From the NCBI GenBank assembly GCA_014860355.1, contig JACZJV010000126.1:1-57205 (forward strand): DNA of 57,205 nucleotides. Direction: 5' to 3'. Positions 4,511 through 17,427 of the stretch are shown piece after piece. A model generated the notes under the pieces. It did not search any database. It saw only the letters and a program-made list of their open reading frames with translations, and was not told the origin of the DNA. Origin of the DNA: Burkholderiales bacterium. Lineage in GTDB: Bacteria > Pseudomonadota > Gammaproteobacteria > Burkholderiales > SG8-39. Position numbers and translations under genes: made by a program. The first letter of the stretch is position 1; every line of letters begins with the position of its first letter.

Positions 4511-5002
4511 TCAATCTTCGAGCGCCACTTCGACGCCCCTGGCATCCAGCAGCCGCAGCAGCACTTCCGGAGCTATGCCCACCAGGTAACCGCGCCGGCC
4601 GCCATTGATGTATATCCTGTCCAGCGCGAGCACGCTTTTCTCCACATAGACCGGCAAAGGCTTTCTGGTGCCGAAGGGCGAGGTGCCGCCGACCTGATAG
4701 CCGGAATGGCGATAGGCGGCCTCGGGCGTGCACGGCTCGACTTTCTTCACGCCGATTTGCCGCGCCAGGTTCTTGGTCGAGACTTTGCGGTCCCCGTGCA
4801 TCAGCACGATCAAGGCCCGCTTCGCCTCGTCTTCCATCACCAGCGTCTTCACCACCGCGTGCTCGGGCACGCCCAGTTCGCGCGCCGACACCGCCGTGCC
4901 GCCGTGTTCCTCGTAGGCATAGACGTGTTCGGTGTAGGCAATGCCGCGCTTTTTCAGCACTGCCGTCGCCGGCGTTTCGGAGACATGTTCTTTCTTGGCC
5001 AT
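4511..5002 (-). CDS. ybaK: Cys-tRNA(Pro)/Cys-tRNA(Cys) deacylase YbaK/EbsC family
   Basis: This is a 163-residue YbaK-like editing protein that hydrolyses Cys-tRNA(Pro) made in error by prolyl-tRNA synthetase. Family features include the N-terminal TPATAVLKKRGIAYTEHVYA and the VVKTLVMEDEAKRALIVLMHG strand pair. Also present are KVSTKNLARQIGVKKVEPC, the GYQVGGTSPFGTRKPLPVYV core and the YINGGRRGYLVGIAP ending. I chose the ATG at 5002 because the longer open frame upstream runs into the composite hairpin element and its translation there has no family similarity. The gene is transcribed away from that element. Confidence 0.9.
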   Translation of the reverse strand: MAKKEHVSETPATAVLKKRGIAYTEHVYAYEEHGGTAVSARELGVPEHAVVKTLVMEDEAKRALIVLMHGDRKVSTKNLARQIGVKKVEPCTPEAAYRHSGYQVGGTSPFGTRKPLPVYVEKSVLALDRIYINGGRRGYLVGIAPEVLLRLLDARGVEVALED

Positions 5003-5041
5003 GGGTTTTCCATGCGGTGGCTTGAATTGCGTTTCGCGTTG

Positions 5042-5243
5042 CTGCAGATCTGCGCTGTTGCGCGGACGAGAAACCGTCCGCGCGGATCGTTGCTTGTGCA
5101 CGGATGAAAAGCGTATCCGTGCACAAGCAACGATCTTGGTTAGACCCCGCCACAGTGTGATTGTGGACTTATCCATAACCGTGTCTTCTGGACGGATGGC
5201 TCTTATCCGTCCAGAAGACACGGTTGGCGCGCGCAGCGCGCAA
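5042..5243 (+). repeat. Composite nested-hairpin element, copy 1
   Basis: The parts in order are as follows. CTGCAG lies at 5042-5047. Hairpin A has arms 5060-5068 and 5075-5083 (GCGCGGACG/CGTCCGCGC, loop AGAAAC). Hairpin B has 21-bp perfect arms 5085-5105 and 5115-5135 (loop GAAAAGCGT). A 41-nt linker spans 5136-5176. Hairpin C has 21-bp perfect arms 5177-5197 and 5205-5225 (loop GGCTCTT). Hairpin D lies at 5224-5243 (TTG, bulged G, CGCGC, loop GCA). No reading frame here looks coding. The element lies upstream of ybaK and downstream of xerD. Copies 2 and 3 are at 8862-9063 and 17148-17370. Confidence 0.85.
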
Positions 5244-5289
5244 CTCCTTCGTTTTCATTCGCCAGCCCTTGATAGGACGCCGCATATCG

Positions 5290-6192
5290 CTATCCGCGCG
5301 GGTGGTGTTTCTGGTGCAGCTGCTTCAGGCGCTCGCGCGCGACATGCGTATAAATCTGCGTGGTTGAGATGTCGGCATGGCCGAGCAGCATCTGCACCAC
5401 GCGCAGGTCGGCGCCGTGGTTGAGCAGATGCGTGGCAAAGGCATGGCGCAGCGTGTGCGGCGACATCGGCTTGCCGGGTACCGAAGCGCGCGCATGCTTT
5501 TTTATGAGATACCAGAAGGCCTGGCGCGTCATAGCCCCGCCGCGTGCGGTGACGAAGGCCGCATCCGACTGGGCGCGCGCGAGCAGGCGCGGACGCCCGT
5601 CTTTCAGGTAGCGCGTGAGCCAGTCCGAGGCTTCCTCGCCCATCGGCACCATGCGCTCCTTGTTGCCTTTGCCGAACACGCGCACTACTCCCATGTCCTG
5701 GCTGATTTCGATCAGCTTCAGCGCCACCAGCTCGGATACGCGCAGCCCGGTGGCGTAGAGCATCTCCAGCATGGCGCGGTCGCGCAGGCCCAGCGGCGTT
5801 GCCGCATCCGGCGCCGCGAGCAGCGCTTCCACGTCCGTTTCTGTGAGCGACTTGGGAAAGCGCTGCGGTTTTTTCGGCGTATCCAGCTTGAGCGTCGGGT
5901 CCGCGGCAAGCTTGTTCTCGCGCAAGGCGAACTGGAAAAAGCGCTTGAGGCTTGAGTGCAGCCGCGCCTGCGAACTCGCGCGCAGCCTTGCCTGGGTATA
6001 GCGAAAGGCGAAATACGCCGACAGGTCCTGTTCGCGCGTATCGAGCAGGGCCTGGGCTCGTTCGCGCGCCAGCCACTCGGCGTACAGGCTCAGGTCGCGG
6101 CGGTAGGCTTCGAGCGTGTTCTTCGACAGGCCGTCTTCCAGCCACAGATGGTCGCAGAATTCGTCTAGCAGGGCGGCGTCGTTTTCAGTCAT
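5290..6192 (-). CDS. xerD: Tyrosine recombinase XerD
   Basis: This is a 300-residue site-specific tyrosine recombinase. With XerC it resolves chromosome dimers at dif. The N-terminal SAM-like domain (LLDEFCDHLWLEDGLSKNTL, ending near residue 110) binds DNA. The catalytic domain carries Arg in ATGLRVSELVAL, Lys in GKGNKERMVPMG, His and Arg in HTLRHAFATHLL, His in LLGHADISTTQ, and the nucleophile Tyr in IYTHV. The C-terminal RLKQLHQKHHPRG is typical of XerD. I chose the ATG at 6192 because it gives the normal XerD N-terminus and overlaps the ogt stop by eight bases. No phage genes are nearby, so this is the housekeeping recombinase and not an integrase. Confidence 0.95.
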   Translation of the reverse strand: MTENDAALLDEFCDHLWLEDGLSKNTLEAYRRDLSLYAEWLARERAQALLDTREQDLSAYFAFRYTQARLRASSQARLHSSLKRFFQFALRENKLAADPTLKLDTPKKPQRFPKSLTETDVEALLAAPDAATPLGLRDRAMLEMLYATGLRVSELVALKLIEISQDMGVVRVFGKGNKERMVPMGEEASDWLTRYLKDGRPRLLARAQSDAAFVTARGGAMTRQAFWYLIKKHARASVPGKPMSPHTLRHAFATHLLNHGADLRVVQMLLGHADISTTQIYTHVARERLKQLHQKHHPRG

Positions 6193-6721
6193 GCGACCTG
6201 CGCCGCGCACTCAGGATATCCGGCTGCTCGTGCGCGAGCAAGCGGCGCTTGACCTCGAGCAGGTAGCCGCCGCTCGCGTGGGCGAAGCCGCCCAGGCCCG
6301 TGGCCGCGACCACGCGGTGGCAGGGTATCACCAGCGGAAAATAATTCGTGCCGCAGGCCTGGCCCACTGCGCGCGGCGCGGAGCGCAGCGAGCGCGCAAG
6401 CTCGCCATAGGTTCTGGTTTCGCCACAGGGTATCGCGGCTATCTGGTCCCACACGCTGCGCTGGAAGGCGGTGCCCAGCTGTTTCAGCGGCAGCTTGAAT
6501 GGGTAGTCCGGATCGGCCGCATATTTTTCGATCTGCATGCAGGCGCGCTCGGAAAGCGCGTCCGTGGGCGCCAGGGTGCCGGCGCTGCGCGGCAAATACA
6601 CGATCTCCGCCAGGGCGGCGCCTTCGGTGCGCACGCCCACCAGGGCGAACGGCGTGTCGAGTTTGGCCTGAAACCGCGGCAATGCTGCAATGGCCTCGTG
6701 TAACTGGATGGTTTTTAACAA
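6185..6721 (-). CDS. ogt: Methylated-DNA--protein-cysteine methyltransferase (Ogt/MGMT)
   Basis: This is a 178-residue suicide alkyltransferase that repairs O6-alkylguanine by taking the alkyl group onto a cysteine. The active site is the PCHRV motif in YFPLVIPCHRVVAATG. The helix-turn-helix region RTYGELARSLRSAPRAVGQA and the following asparagine hinge (GTN) are present. The only usable start is TTG at 6721: the codon before it is a stop, and no ATG occurs before the conserved core. A minus-strand TATAAT lies 37 bp upstream. The stop overlaps the xerD start, so the two repair and recombination genes are probably cotranscribed. Confidence 0.92.
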   Translation of the reverse strand: MLKTIQLHEAIAALPRFQAKLDTPFALVGVRTEGAALAEIVYLPRSAGTLAPTDALSERACMQIEKYAADPDYPFKLPLKQLGTAFQRSVWDQIAAIPCGETRTYGELARSLRSAPRAVGQACGTNYFPLVIPCHRVVAATGLGGFAHASGGYLLEVKRRLLAHEQPDILSARRRSHD

Positions 6722-6758
6722 TTAAATCCGGTGGCAACGCCGCCGCCGGAGGTGCGGG

Positions 6759-6764
6759 ATTATA
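6759..6764 (-). promoter_or_regulatory. Candidate -10 box for ogt-xerD
   Basis: TATAAT on the minus strand, 37 bp upstream of the ogt TTG start. No matching -35 box is visible at 16-18 bp, so this is a weak assignment. The 6722-6969 interval is a divergent control region shared with typA; apart from this box nothing else in it is convincing. Confidence 0.35.
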
Positions 6765-6969
6765 CTATTCGACCGGAAAAATGGGCTCATCGGCAAGAAT
6801 TATGCTAACATATTGAATTTTCTGGCCTTCCAAAGCCGCCGTCGGGGCAGCTCTGGTCCAGGTATTTCAACCTAGGTTAGAGCAAGCTCAGGCCGGGGCA
6901 AGCGCTAGTTTGCCGCTCATTGCCGTCCGCTTGCGACACGACCTGCGATTCTCTTTAGACTGTTTCCTC

Positions 6970-8826
<1,857 letters not shown>

Positions 8827-8861
8827 GCGATAGTCGTCTGACGGCAATCTTCTCAGGCGAC

Positions 8862-9063
8862 CTGCAGCATGTAGAAAAAACCTGCGCGGACGAACAACCG
8901 TCCGCGCGGATCGTCGATTGCGTACGGACGAAAGGCCGTCCGTACGCAATCGACGATCTTGTATGAAACCCCCGCGACGTCCTTGTTGTTAACCATAACC
9001 GTGTTTTCCGTACGGATGGTTTTTATCCGTACGGAAAACACGGTTGGCGCGCGAAGCGCGCAA
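8862..9063 (+). repeat. Composite nested-hairpin element, copy 2
   Basis: Same order as copy 1. CTGCAG lies at 8862-8867. Hairpin A is at 8884-8892/8899-8907 (identical arms, loop AACAAC). Hairpin B is at 8909-8930/8937-8958 (22-bp perfect stem, loop AAAGGC). A 38-nt linker spans 8959-8996. Hairpin C is at 8997-9017/9025-9045 (21-bp perfect stem, loop GGTTTTT). Hairpin D is at 9044-9063. It lies between the convergent ends of typA and the flavoprotein gene and fills most of that 316-bp gap. Total length equals copy 1 (202 bp). There is no U-tract after any hairpin, so it is not a standard intrinsic terminator. Confidence 0.85.
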
Positions 9064-9142
9064 GTCGCCGCAAGGCATGCGATTCCATTGGAGACGCCCT
9101 GTCCGGCTGCAACATGTCGGGAGATCCCGACCTCATGGGCTC

Positions 9143-10852
9143 TCAACTCACCAGACTCTCGCCCGGTTTCACGCGCGTAAATTCCACCGCTACACGGCTG
9201 ACGCTGAAACCCTCGCCCGCGGCCTGCACCAGGCTGTAGGTCGAGCTCGCCAGATCGCCTGCATCGGGAAAATCCTCGCGATAGTGCGCGCCGCGCGAAT
9301 TCTCGCGCACCAGGGCCGCCTCGCAGACGGCGCGGCTGACCAGAATCAGGTTATTGAGATTCATCCAGTCGTGCCAGGCGAGGTTGTAGCGCAGATCAGT
9401 CGCATCCACGCCGATCGCTTCGAGGCGCGCCTGCAGTGCGGAGAGCGCGCCGCGCGCGCGCGCAAGACCCCGGGCGTCGCGCACTATGCCGACGTCGTCC
9501 CACATCAATTCGTACAGCGCCTGGCGCACGCCTTCGAGGTCGCCGGCGGGTCTGGCGAGCGGCGCGCGGCAAGCCGCCACGACCGCGGCGATTTCTTCGC
9601 AATCGGCTTCGTGCAGCGCGCCCTGCGCTCGCACCCAGGCCGCCATTTCCTCTCCGGCCACGCCGCCATAGACCGTGGAGTTGGCAACGCCGTTGCCGCC
9701 GAGGCGGTTGGCCCCGTGCACCCCGCCGGTATCCTCGCCAGCGGCGAACAGGCCGGGCAGCGCGGTGGAGCAGTCTGGCCTGAACGCAACCCCGCCCATC
9801 ATGTAGTGCGCGGTCGGCACCACTTCGACCAGGCCGCCGGCGAGATCGAAACCGCTGTCGGCGCAGCGATCGACCATGCCCTTGAACTGCCTGGCCACGT
9901 TCTGCGGCCCCAGGTGCGCCATGCTGATATGCACGCCGCCGTTGGGCGTGGTGCGGCCCGCGCGCATTTCGGCGTAGATCGAGCGCGACACGATGTCGCG
10001 CGTGGCGCGCTCCAGCCTGTCGTCGTAGTTGCCCATGAAGCGCTGGCCCTCGCCGTTCAGGAGGTAGCCGCCTGAGCCGCGCAGCCCCTCTTCCAGCACC
10101 GTGCCGGTCATGCGTGTGTGCGTGCCAGCGAGCAGGCCCGTGGGATGGAACTGCACCATTTCCATGTCGCGCAGGCGCAGTCCGGCGCGCAGGGCCATGG
10201 CGAGGCCGTCGCAGCTTTTGTCGCCCGAGGGCGTGTGGTATTTGTACATGGTCGGGCCGCCGCCGGTGGCAAGCAGCACGGCTTTGGCGCGAACGAAACT
10301 GAATTCGCCGCTGCGCATGTCTATCATCAGCACGCCTGCGAGCGTGCCGCCGTTCTTCGCCTTGATCAAGGCCACCGCGCGATGCTCTTCCAGTCGCGCG
10401 ATGTTGCGCGCCCATACCTGCTCGGCCAGGCGGTTGATGATTTCGATGCCGGTGAGATCACCCTTGTGCACGGTGCGATCGAAGGTTTGCCCGGCGAAGG
10501 CTTTCTGGTGGATGCTGCCGTCCGGGTTCCGGTCGAAAAAACAGCCCAGCTCATTCTCCAGTTCGTGGACGCGTTCCACCGCCAGGGTCACCAGCTTCCA
10601 GGCGAGATCCTGGTCGGGCAGCCACTTGCCGCCCTCTATGGTGTCCATGAAGTGGCGCTCCACCGAGTCGCCGGCGGCGAGCGCGACGTTGTAGCCGCCC
10701 TGTACCATGCGCGTGCAGCCGCACTTGCCCAGCAGGCCCTTGACCGCGATGGTGATGGAAAGCTCGGGCGCCACCTGGTGCGCGTGCAGCGCGGCGAACA
10801 GTCCGGCGCCGCCCGAGCCGAGTATCAGAATGTCAGTGCTGAGCTCACGCAT
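9143..10852 (-). CDS. FAD-dependent fumarate reductase/succinate dehydrogenase-type flavoprotein
   Basis: This is a 569-residue flavoprotein of the SdhA/FrdA/NadB family. The dinucleotide fold is ILILGSGGAGLFAALHA at the N-terminus. Substrate-site residues of fumarate reductases are kept: MVQFHPTGL, EEGLRGSGGYLLNGEGQRFM, VVPTAHYMMGG and GANRLGGNGV. The His that carries covalent FAD in SdhA (SHT-x-x-x-QGG) is Cys here (GCTRMVQGGYNVAL), so FAD is probably bound non-covalently. No iron-sulfur or membrane-anchor subunit is next to it. It follows the TRAP permease gene by 21 bp, so the imported compound may be its substrate or product, or a related acid. This is an oxidoreductase of unknown substrate. 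Confidence 0.85.
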   Translation of the reverse strand: MRELSTDILILGSGGAGLFAALHAHQVAPELSITIAVKGLLGKCGCTRMVQGGYNVALAAGDSVERHFMDTIEGGKWLPDQDLAWKLVTLAVERVHELENELGCFFDRNPDGSIHQKAFAGQTFDRTVHKGDLTGIEIINRLAEQVWARNIARLEEHRAVALIKAKNGGTLAGVLMIDMRSGEFSFVRAKAVLLATGGGPTMYKYHTPSGDKSCDGLAMALRAGLRLRDMEMVQFHPTGLLAGTHTRMTGTVLEEGLRGSGGYLLNGEGQRFMGNYDDRLERATRDIVSRSIYAEMRAGRTTPNGGVHISMAHLGPQNVARQFKGMVDRCADSGFDLAGGLVEVVPTAHYMMGGVAFRPDCSTALPGLFAAGEDTGGVHGANRLGGNGVANSTVYGGVAGEEMAAWVRAQGALHEADCEEIAAVVAACRAPLARPAGDLEGVRQALYELMWDDVGIVRDARGLARARGALSALQARLEAIGVDATDLRYNLAWHDWMNLNNLILVSRAVCEAALVRENSRGAHYREDFPDAGDLASSTYSLVQAAGEGFSVSRVAVEFTRVKPGESLVS

Positions 10853-17147: not shown

Positions 17148-17370
17148 TTGCGCGCTGCGCCGCGAAGCAAGTCCTCCTGGGGGACGCGCGCCAACCGTGT
17201 TTTTGTGCGGATGAAAAGCGCATCCGCACAAAAACACGGCTACGGGTAAAAACAAAAGACGGTTCGGGGCTATACAAGATCGCCGATTGTGCGCGGATAT
17301 GCTTTTCATCCGCGCACAATCGGCGATCCGCGCGGACGGGTCGCCGTCCGCGCAAGCCCGGTCACTGCAG
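17148..17370 (-). repeat. Composite nested-hairpin element, copy 3 (inverted, with insertion in D)
   Basis: The orientation is opposite to copies 1 and 2. Reading on the minus strand: CTGCAG at 17370-17365; hairpin A at 17353-17345/17338-17330 (same arms); hairpin B at 17328-17308/17298-17278 (21-bp perfect, loop GAAAAGCAT); a 38-nt linker at 17277-17240. Hairpin C is at 17239-17221/17213-17195 (19-bp perfect, loop CGCTTTT). Hairpin D is at 17194-17148, with about 27 nt more between its arms than the other copies. It lies between the convergent ends of the peptidase and bdhA genes and fills most of that 355-bp gap. Confidence 0.85.
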
Positions 17371-17403: not shown

Positions 17404-17427
17404 GCGCGGACGGCTATTCGTCCGCGC
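17404..17427. repeat. Solitary hairpin A of the composite element family
   Basis: Arms GCGCGGACG (17404-17412) and CGTCCGCGC (17419-17427) are identical to hairpin A of all three composite elements, with a 6-nt loop GCTATT. It stands alone 50 bp beyond copy 3, next to the bdhA stop. It may be a remnant of a second element or an independent unit. Confidence 0.7.

Follow-up and report, generated by a model that had tools for sequence, protein, structure and literature searches.

Three intergenic spacers of the window (the whole 57,205-nt stretch of DNA that was analysed) are rich in hairpins, and the question is what kind of element they hold. A preliminary description had read them as the same ordered set of parts and had suggested, among other possibilities, a non-autonomous mobile family. 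We confirmed that all three copies are present: the three spacers are copies of one dispersed repeat, and the order of the parts (A-B-linker-D-C) is identical in each. We put a probability of roughly 85% on the element being a bacterial MITE, that is, a gene-less, non-autonomous mobile repeat akin to ERIC, Correia, or CIR. The element's many copies, its terminal inverted repeats (TIRs), the TA dinucleotides that border it, and the sites in relatives where it is missing support the idea of a mobile family; we describe each of these below.

Copy 1 is on the forward strand. In the alignment of cores, its core (TTGCGCGG...GCGCGCAA) runs from 5058 to 5243 (186 bp) and contains hairpin A (5060 to 5083), hairpin B with a 21-bp stem (5085 to 5135), hairpin D, also with a 21-bp stem (5177 to 5225), and the terminal hairpin C (5227 to 5241). 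A scan for TIRs extends this copy to a full-length element at 5009 to 5286 with degenerate ends: the 5' TIR (5009 to 5031) has 7 mismatches to a 23-base consensus, and the 3' TIR (5268 to 5286, terminating in GGACGCCGCATA) has 9 relative to a 24-base consensus spanning it. Copy 2, also on the forward strand, has a 182-bp core (8882 to 9063), with hairpin A at 8884 to 8907, hairpin B at 8909 to 8958, and hairpin D at 8997 to 9045; its 5' flank is of another type, in which no 5' TIR was recognised. Copy 3 is on the reverse strand, and its 208-bp core (17148 to 17355) has an additional stretch within hairpin C. (Four more of the 42 copies that we aligned are likewise extended in hairpin C or in the loop of this hairpin.) Copies 1 and 2 had been noted as equal in length (202 bp), but this is an artefact of the cut points, as the three cores are 186, 182, and 208 bp. 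In contrast, the junction between hairpins A and B that had been called invariant, CGTCCGCGCGGATCG, is indeed present in all three window copies, and it is also found in 35 of the 42 aligned genome copies. A solitary hairpin A-like palindrome (17404 to 17427, GCGCGGACG...CGTCCGCGC, strand not assigned) lies about 50 bp from copy 3 and outside any full element.

The repeat is abundant in the source genome (5.09 Mb in 202 contigs). A DNA search with copy 1, in which the best 40 of 113 candidates were scored, gave at least 41 further near full-length matches with 72-81% identity, including the other two window copies. We aligned 42 cores from the source genome (alignment A1; 181-212 bp, mean pairwise identity 78%), built a model (R1) from them, and ran it on 73 stretches of that genome. 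This gave 68 rows at E ≤ 1e-30, or 57 distinct sites once 11 same-site antisense rows were removed; 46 of the sites score at least 170 bits, and four of those 46 were absent from model building. As the whole-genome search scored the best 150 of 4,851 candidates, 57 sites is a lower bound. The 41 further matches, together with a structure that beats every shuffle (see below), put the repeat far beyond chance. The preliminary description had proposed searching this and related genomes with a model built from the copies, and had named the absence of further copies, or a match to a catalogued family, as the outcome that would count against it. Copies turned out to abound (at least 57 sites in the source genome), and no Rfam 15 family reached its gathering score on the window. 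A permissive Rfam scan of copy 1 returned only microRNA-precursor models, far under their cut-offs.

Element doublets were seen at several places in the genome. Some tandem doublets (L083, L087, and L011, which is the C22 pair) are joined via a palindromic junction of the type GCGCAGGTTTTGGCAAAACCTGCGCGG, which looks as if dimers might form by a defined route.

The similarity between copies extends past the core into the aligned flanks. In the best-preserved copies, the core lies within imperfect TIRs (TATACGTGGCGACTTGAAT... / ...ATTTAAGACGCCGTATA) and the total length is about 277 bp; full-length copies start with TATACGTGGCGACTTGAATCGCG and finish with ATTTAAGACGCCGTATA, and these two ends are inverted repeats of each other, though imperfect. 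With up to 3 mismatches allowed, the 5' TIR pattern was found in 11 of the 14 genomes of the genus, and the reversed control was found in none. At 23 of 30 fetched TIR loci, the hairpin A pattern (up to 3 mismatches) lies at +44 to +54, mostly at +48 or +49. The other seven are without this pattern, and L195, L200, L207, and L216 read as internally deleted elements. TA is found just outside the 5' end in 26 of 51 cases and just outside the 3' end in 22 of 39 cases, versus a background of 1.8%. The 5' TIR is not recognisable in many copies; because these have other 5' flanks, the core also exists in truncated or rearranged settings, including window copies 2 and 3.

CTGCAG had been proposed as the natural end of the element. 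All three window copies do carry this motif a short distance outside hairpin A, but it is not the end: 5 of 42 copies have it exactly and 16 of 42 have it when one mismatch is allowed (versus 2.6% of background windows), the region varies among copies (about GTTGTTGCAGAGTTGCGAT), and full-length copies reach about 48 bp beyond hairpin A. L070, L076, L158, and others have a 5' flank of a second class (about TTCGAACTGCAGCG...AC ahead of TTGCGCGG), which is frequent in the second units of doublets. Some of the CTGCAG motifs derive from this flank class.

The core (181-212 bp) consists of hairpin A, hairpin B, a variable linker, hairpin D, and hairpin C. In the 42-copy alignment, the stems of B and D are 21 bp and the stem of A is 9 bp. 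The core is roughly symmetric, as the loop types of B and D are reverse complements of each other in most copies. Among the 42 cores, 97.2% of 2,391 cells are paired, and 26 of 57 pairs have changed on both sides (161 cells); these values were reached by 0 of 500 shuffles. Kinship among sequences can exceed such shuffles, so we note that pairing falls to 21-42% when the partner is offset by one to three columns, which retains the kinship. All 26 compensated pairs are within B and D, while A and C are nearly invariant. Paired drift of the B and D stems is also seen between copies that occupy the same site. (Pair counts from A3, an alignment of relatives' rows, were set aside as evidence of covariation because it mixes sense and antisense, which inflates double changes.) The DNA fold of copy 1 has z = −10.7. 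The fold of the most intact copy (L219, in G005) pairs both TIRs as a closing stem around the hairpins, also with z = −10.7.

The remaining mismatches bear on whether the folded molecule is RNA or DNA. One transcribed RNA strand should favour G.U pairs in both helices. We counted 27 G.T versus 40 A.C mismatches in the 42 source copies and 26 versus 25 in 45 distinct rows from relatives (from the 50 best rows of A3, all sense, in an alignment fitted to the structure). The pooled counts are 53 versus 65 (P = 0.31, binomial test, with cells treated as independent though they are not). Split by helix, B favours A.C (46 versus 21) and D favours G.T (28 versus 12). If B and D are instead read along the direction of the loop, then they agree: mismatches lean 74 versus 33 towards G.T on the strand with the CTTTTC loop (A1 and A3). 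This pattern is unlike one structured RNA strand, and either a strand-specific DNA hairpin or chance of descent could fit it. The opposite leans of B and D come largely from a small number of loop-proximal pairs and were possibly inherited from a few ancestors.

One way to account for these stems is that the long palindromes are renewed in DNA: B and D drift, and each of their arms is corrected against its partner by hairpin-templated repair, or else one hairpin strand is the substrate of an unrecognised kind of transposition. Mismatch leans that are opposite in B and D, but that agree in the loop direction, would fit such a strand-specific DNA hairpin. If DNA-level renewal were true, then the structure would be inherited while the sequence would be free. 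We consider this idea tentative and, on balance, unlikely.

Another alternative is that the element is a structured RNA, or a bidirectional transcript-end element, that is selected for its RNA folding, and that mobility is secondary or absent. Besides the strong covariation, the gene setting could be taken this way. A rough ORF caller placed 16 of the 42 copies between convergent genes, 24 between co-directional genes, and one between divergent genes, with one undetermined. (Tandem copies were each counted separately. The caller misplaced copy 1 as convergent and copy 3 as co-directional, which leaves the totals unaffected, and some of the neighbours are hundreds of bases off.) By these rough calls, a gene 3' end lies on at least one side of 40 of 41 scored copies. 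As convergent and divergent gene pairs are expected to be about equally common in a genome, the ratio of 16 to 1 suggests a bias towards gene 3' ends. Perhaps the simplest reason for this bias is selection against insertions in promoters. All three window copies had been placed at gene 3' ends, and copies 2 and 3 do lie between convergent genes, but copy 1 has the 3' end of a gene on one side (xerD-like) and the 5' end of a gene on the other (with a tRNA-editing domain). Also, four of the seven terminator-like sites in positions 4900 to 9300 are inside element copies. However, seven such sites is not far from the 4.3 (sd 2.5) found in shuffles, G.T and A.C mismatches are about equally common overall and favour G.T only in D where RNA should favour G.U in both helices, and the element's presence at orthologous sites is patchy. 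So, it is quite unlikely that the element is primarily an RNA.

It also seems unlikely that the element encodes a protein. At least one frame is free of stops in 38 of 42 cores, and copies 1 and 3 are crossed by some ORFs, but each individual frame is open in 23 of 42 at most. These stop-free ORFs are probably by-products of high G+C.

How widely is the element distributed? R1 matches were found in all 14 genomes of the genus, and 11 of these have at least 42-44 matches each (the best 44 candidates were scored). The others have few (7 in G007, 4 in G004, and 3 in G012); all of these counts may include antisense rows. The low-copy genomes are scattered and do not form a single clade in a weakly supported tree of bipA. 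Across the family, 24 of 98 genomes match R1 at E ≤ 1e-10, including 14/14 in the genus, 3/4 in g19, and 1/2 in g15. (Weaker R1 matches in g13, g6, and g8 may be generic palindromes, and we did not take them as members.) Among other genomes of the order, 1 of 24 matched, with E = 8.8e-4. In one genome per species (84,980 genomes), a 39-base pattern with one free position found 28 stretches, all from isolates or MAGs titled Proteobacteria, Betaproteobacteria, or Burkholderiales. A 22-base pattern had no matches in viral contigs, copy 2 had no match in plasmids and phages in a distant-mode search, and among 20,395 E. coli records a full-length copy matched none at E ≤ 1e-3. The repeat is spread through the genomes of a group of uncultivated Betaproteobacteria.

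We also searched for a transposase that might move the element. The 5' TIR was found at 0 of 12 DDE_3 (IS630-type) loci and 0 of 21 Y1_Tnp loci of the genus (fetched with up to about 1.5 kb on each side); the same rule gives 10 hits in 165 shuffles. With up to 4 mismatches allowed, the 3' TIR string was found at 1 of these 33 loci (L321), versus about two expected by chance. Furthermore, neither transposase tracks the copy number of the element. DDE_3 is absent from 7 of the 14 genomes of the genus, and six of these have at least 42-44 element matches. Y1_Tnp matches 11 of the 14, but it is missing from G003, which has at least 42-44 element matches, and it is present in G004 and G007, which have few copies. 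The partner transposase may be extinct, may belong to another family, or may be missing from the fragmented assemblies.

The Y1_Tnp genes raise the possibility that the hairpins are palindromes of the REP/REPIN type, which a RAYT (Y1/HUH) transposase would move by recognising hairpins in single-stranded form. Like the GTAG and CGTC types of REP/REPIN, as described in one paper (PMC3733652), the element comprises dispersed palindromes and inverted pairs that lie mostly downstream of genes. The core is roughly symmetric, as in a REPIN (TTGCGCG at both ends and a D loop that is the reverse complement of the B type), the hairpins are in inverted order, doublets of the element occur, Y1_Tnp is common in the genus, and the wobble lean on the CTTTTC-loop strand looks as if one strand of the hairpin were the substrate. 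But REP/REPINs are shorter and tagged, with stems of 5-13 bp (GTAG) or 8-9 bp (CGTC) in that paper (PMC3733652), versus 21 bp in B and D. The element's TIRs lie outside the hairpins, and it has no tag: reading the 42-copy alignment by eye, we saw no GTAG foot, in line with the preliminary description, and no CGTC foot beside the hairpins. Nor did we find a link to RAYT, given the lack of the 5' TIR near the 21 Y1_Tnp loci, the lack of short-range flanking hairpins at two Y1_Tnp genes of the source genome, and the mismatch between Y1_Tnp and copy number in G003, G004, and G007. We therefore consider this explanation very improbable.

If the element is mobile, then some relatives should lack it at orthologous sites. 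Empty sites were part of the check that had been proposed, and each of the seven sites open to comparison is empty in one or more congeners. (C84:23414, where the contigs of the relatives end or differ, and window copy 3 are outside this comparison.) The site of copy 1 is filled in the source genome and in G010, while G004, G007, G012, and G013 have spacers of 2-34 bp. The site of copy 2 is filled in the source, G008, and G002; G012, G009, and G003 have an unrelated spacer of 58-128 bp, and G001, G004, G005, G007, G010, and G013 have other sequence after bipA. C36:4146, a shortened copy, is filled in the source and G013 and empty in G008, G001, and G012. C36:6715 is filled in the source and G008 and empty in G013. 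C36:12118 is filled in the source and G008 and empty in G011, G012, and G013. C84:28814 is filled in the source and empty in G008. Finally, the C83 site of G005, which we picked for its intact copy, is filled in G005 and empty in the source, G008, G009, G003, and G007. This last site includes a near-exact empty site: G005 reads TGTCAT-TA-element-TA-GTTC (281 nt) where G008 reads TGTCAC-CG-GTTC (2 nt). G008 is the closest of the 13 congeners to the source (bipA is 94.8% identical over 1,261 bases), and two of the source sites (C36:4146 and C84:28814) are empty in it.

The sites of copy 1 and C36:4146 show that loss or repeated insertion also occurs. As the low-copy genomes are scattered on the bipA tree, and copy 1 is common to genomes that are not sisters, some of the empty sites may be losses. 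We give little credence to an old, non-mobile spacer repeat with vertical descent, many losses, and homogenisation between copies by gene conversion, which would suit the sharing of copy 1 by non-sister genomes, the presence of C36:4146 in the source and G013 but not in G008, and the divergence at C36:6715 (between the source and G008, the element and downstream sequence are 82.6% identical and the gene just before is 97.2% identical), but does not suit the near-exact empty site with TA borders, the restriction of C36:12118 to the sister pair of the source and G008 among five comparable genomes, or the inverted ends with TA.

Returning to the MITE explanation, we propose that the element is moved in trans by a TA-targeting cut-and-paste transposase, presumably IS630/Tc1-mariner-like or another TA-targeting type. 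Insertion would duplicate TA, judging from the one near-exact site, where the relative reads CG instead of TA. The palindromes would be kept at the DNA level, either because DNA folding is important for movement or because each arm corrects its partner; the paired drift of the B and D stems would need selection on folded DNA or arm-to-arm correction. That most of the copies examined neighbour a gene 3' end may reflect selective removal of insertions elsewhere. We count the lack of an autonomous partner, the many copies without a 5' TIR, and the atypical length and G+C as points against a MITE.

Larger MITEs exist. Most bacterial MITEs are under 200 bp and A+T-rich, according to a review (PMC2229807), whereas the full-length element is about 277 bp and the G+C content of the core is 53-64%. 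The element does resemble MITEs in having many dispersed non-coding copies (at least 57 sites), TIRs in the full-length copies, and filled and empty sites. By the descriptions in the same review (PMC2229807), several known families are similar but distinct. ERIC (IRU, RU-1) of enterobacteria is also gene-less and intergenic, with TIRs, TA ends, target duplication, and long stem-loops, but it is 127 bp and enterobacterial, while the element has no match in the E. coli records. The Correia or NEMIS repeats of Neisseria are MITEs with TIRs, TA ends, target duplication, and length variants due to an internal segment, but their lengths are about 107 and 155 bp and their TIRs are 24 bp, and on this description the four hairpins and length of about 277 bp set the element apart. 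CIR of Caulobacter and Brucella has two long stem-loop arms and a linker, like B-linker-D of the element, but it has GANTC at or near the loop and no TIR; GANTC is in 5 of 42 cores, and the full-length copies have TIRs. RUP of Streptococcus pneumoniae is a TA-targeting MITE and provides a model in which IS630-Spn1 moves it in trans (PMC2229807). It shares TIRs with a known IS, whereas we found no such partner for the element among the 12 DDE_3 and 21 Y1_Tnp loci. In the open-access literature (subscription papers were outside our scope), we found no description of this hairpin repeat family, and the matches to an 11-base string from the element look unrelated.

The element would thus be a large MITE family for which we found no description and whose multi-hairpin interior is unusual, and it would account for hairpin-rich spacers in uncultivated Betaproteobacteria. 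Because the number of matches varies from 3 to at least 42-44 among congeners, its spread and loss can be studied. As its stems covary without the wobble pattern of a one-strand RNA, the family could also be used to test the means by which long palindromes persist in bacterial DNA. MAG assemblies may also break at repeats of this kind.

A few loci have further peculiarities. In G013, G004, and G009 (L144, L147, and L141), the spacer after bipA holds a different repeat, of the type GTGGGAGCGGCGCCCTCGCCGCGATCAG, at the position of copy 2. In L126 (G002), hairpin C has apparent nested insertions (CCCCCGGGAGGACTTTCCCCTCAAGGGGGATC...), as if a smaller repeat had entered it. L103 and L084 are apparently the same site in two MAG species; they have hairpin B in common, but most of D is gone from one of them. 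This difference and the absence of hairpin A from some TIR loci together suggest that hairpins are lost as units.
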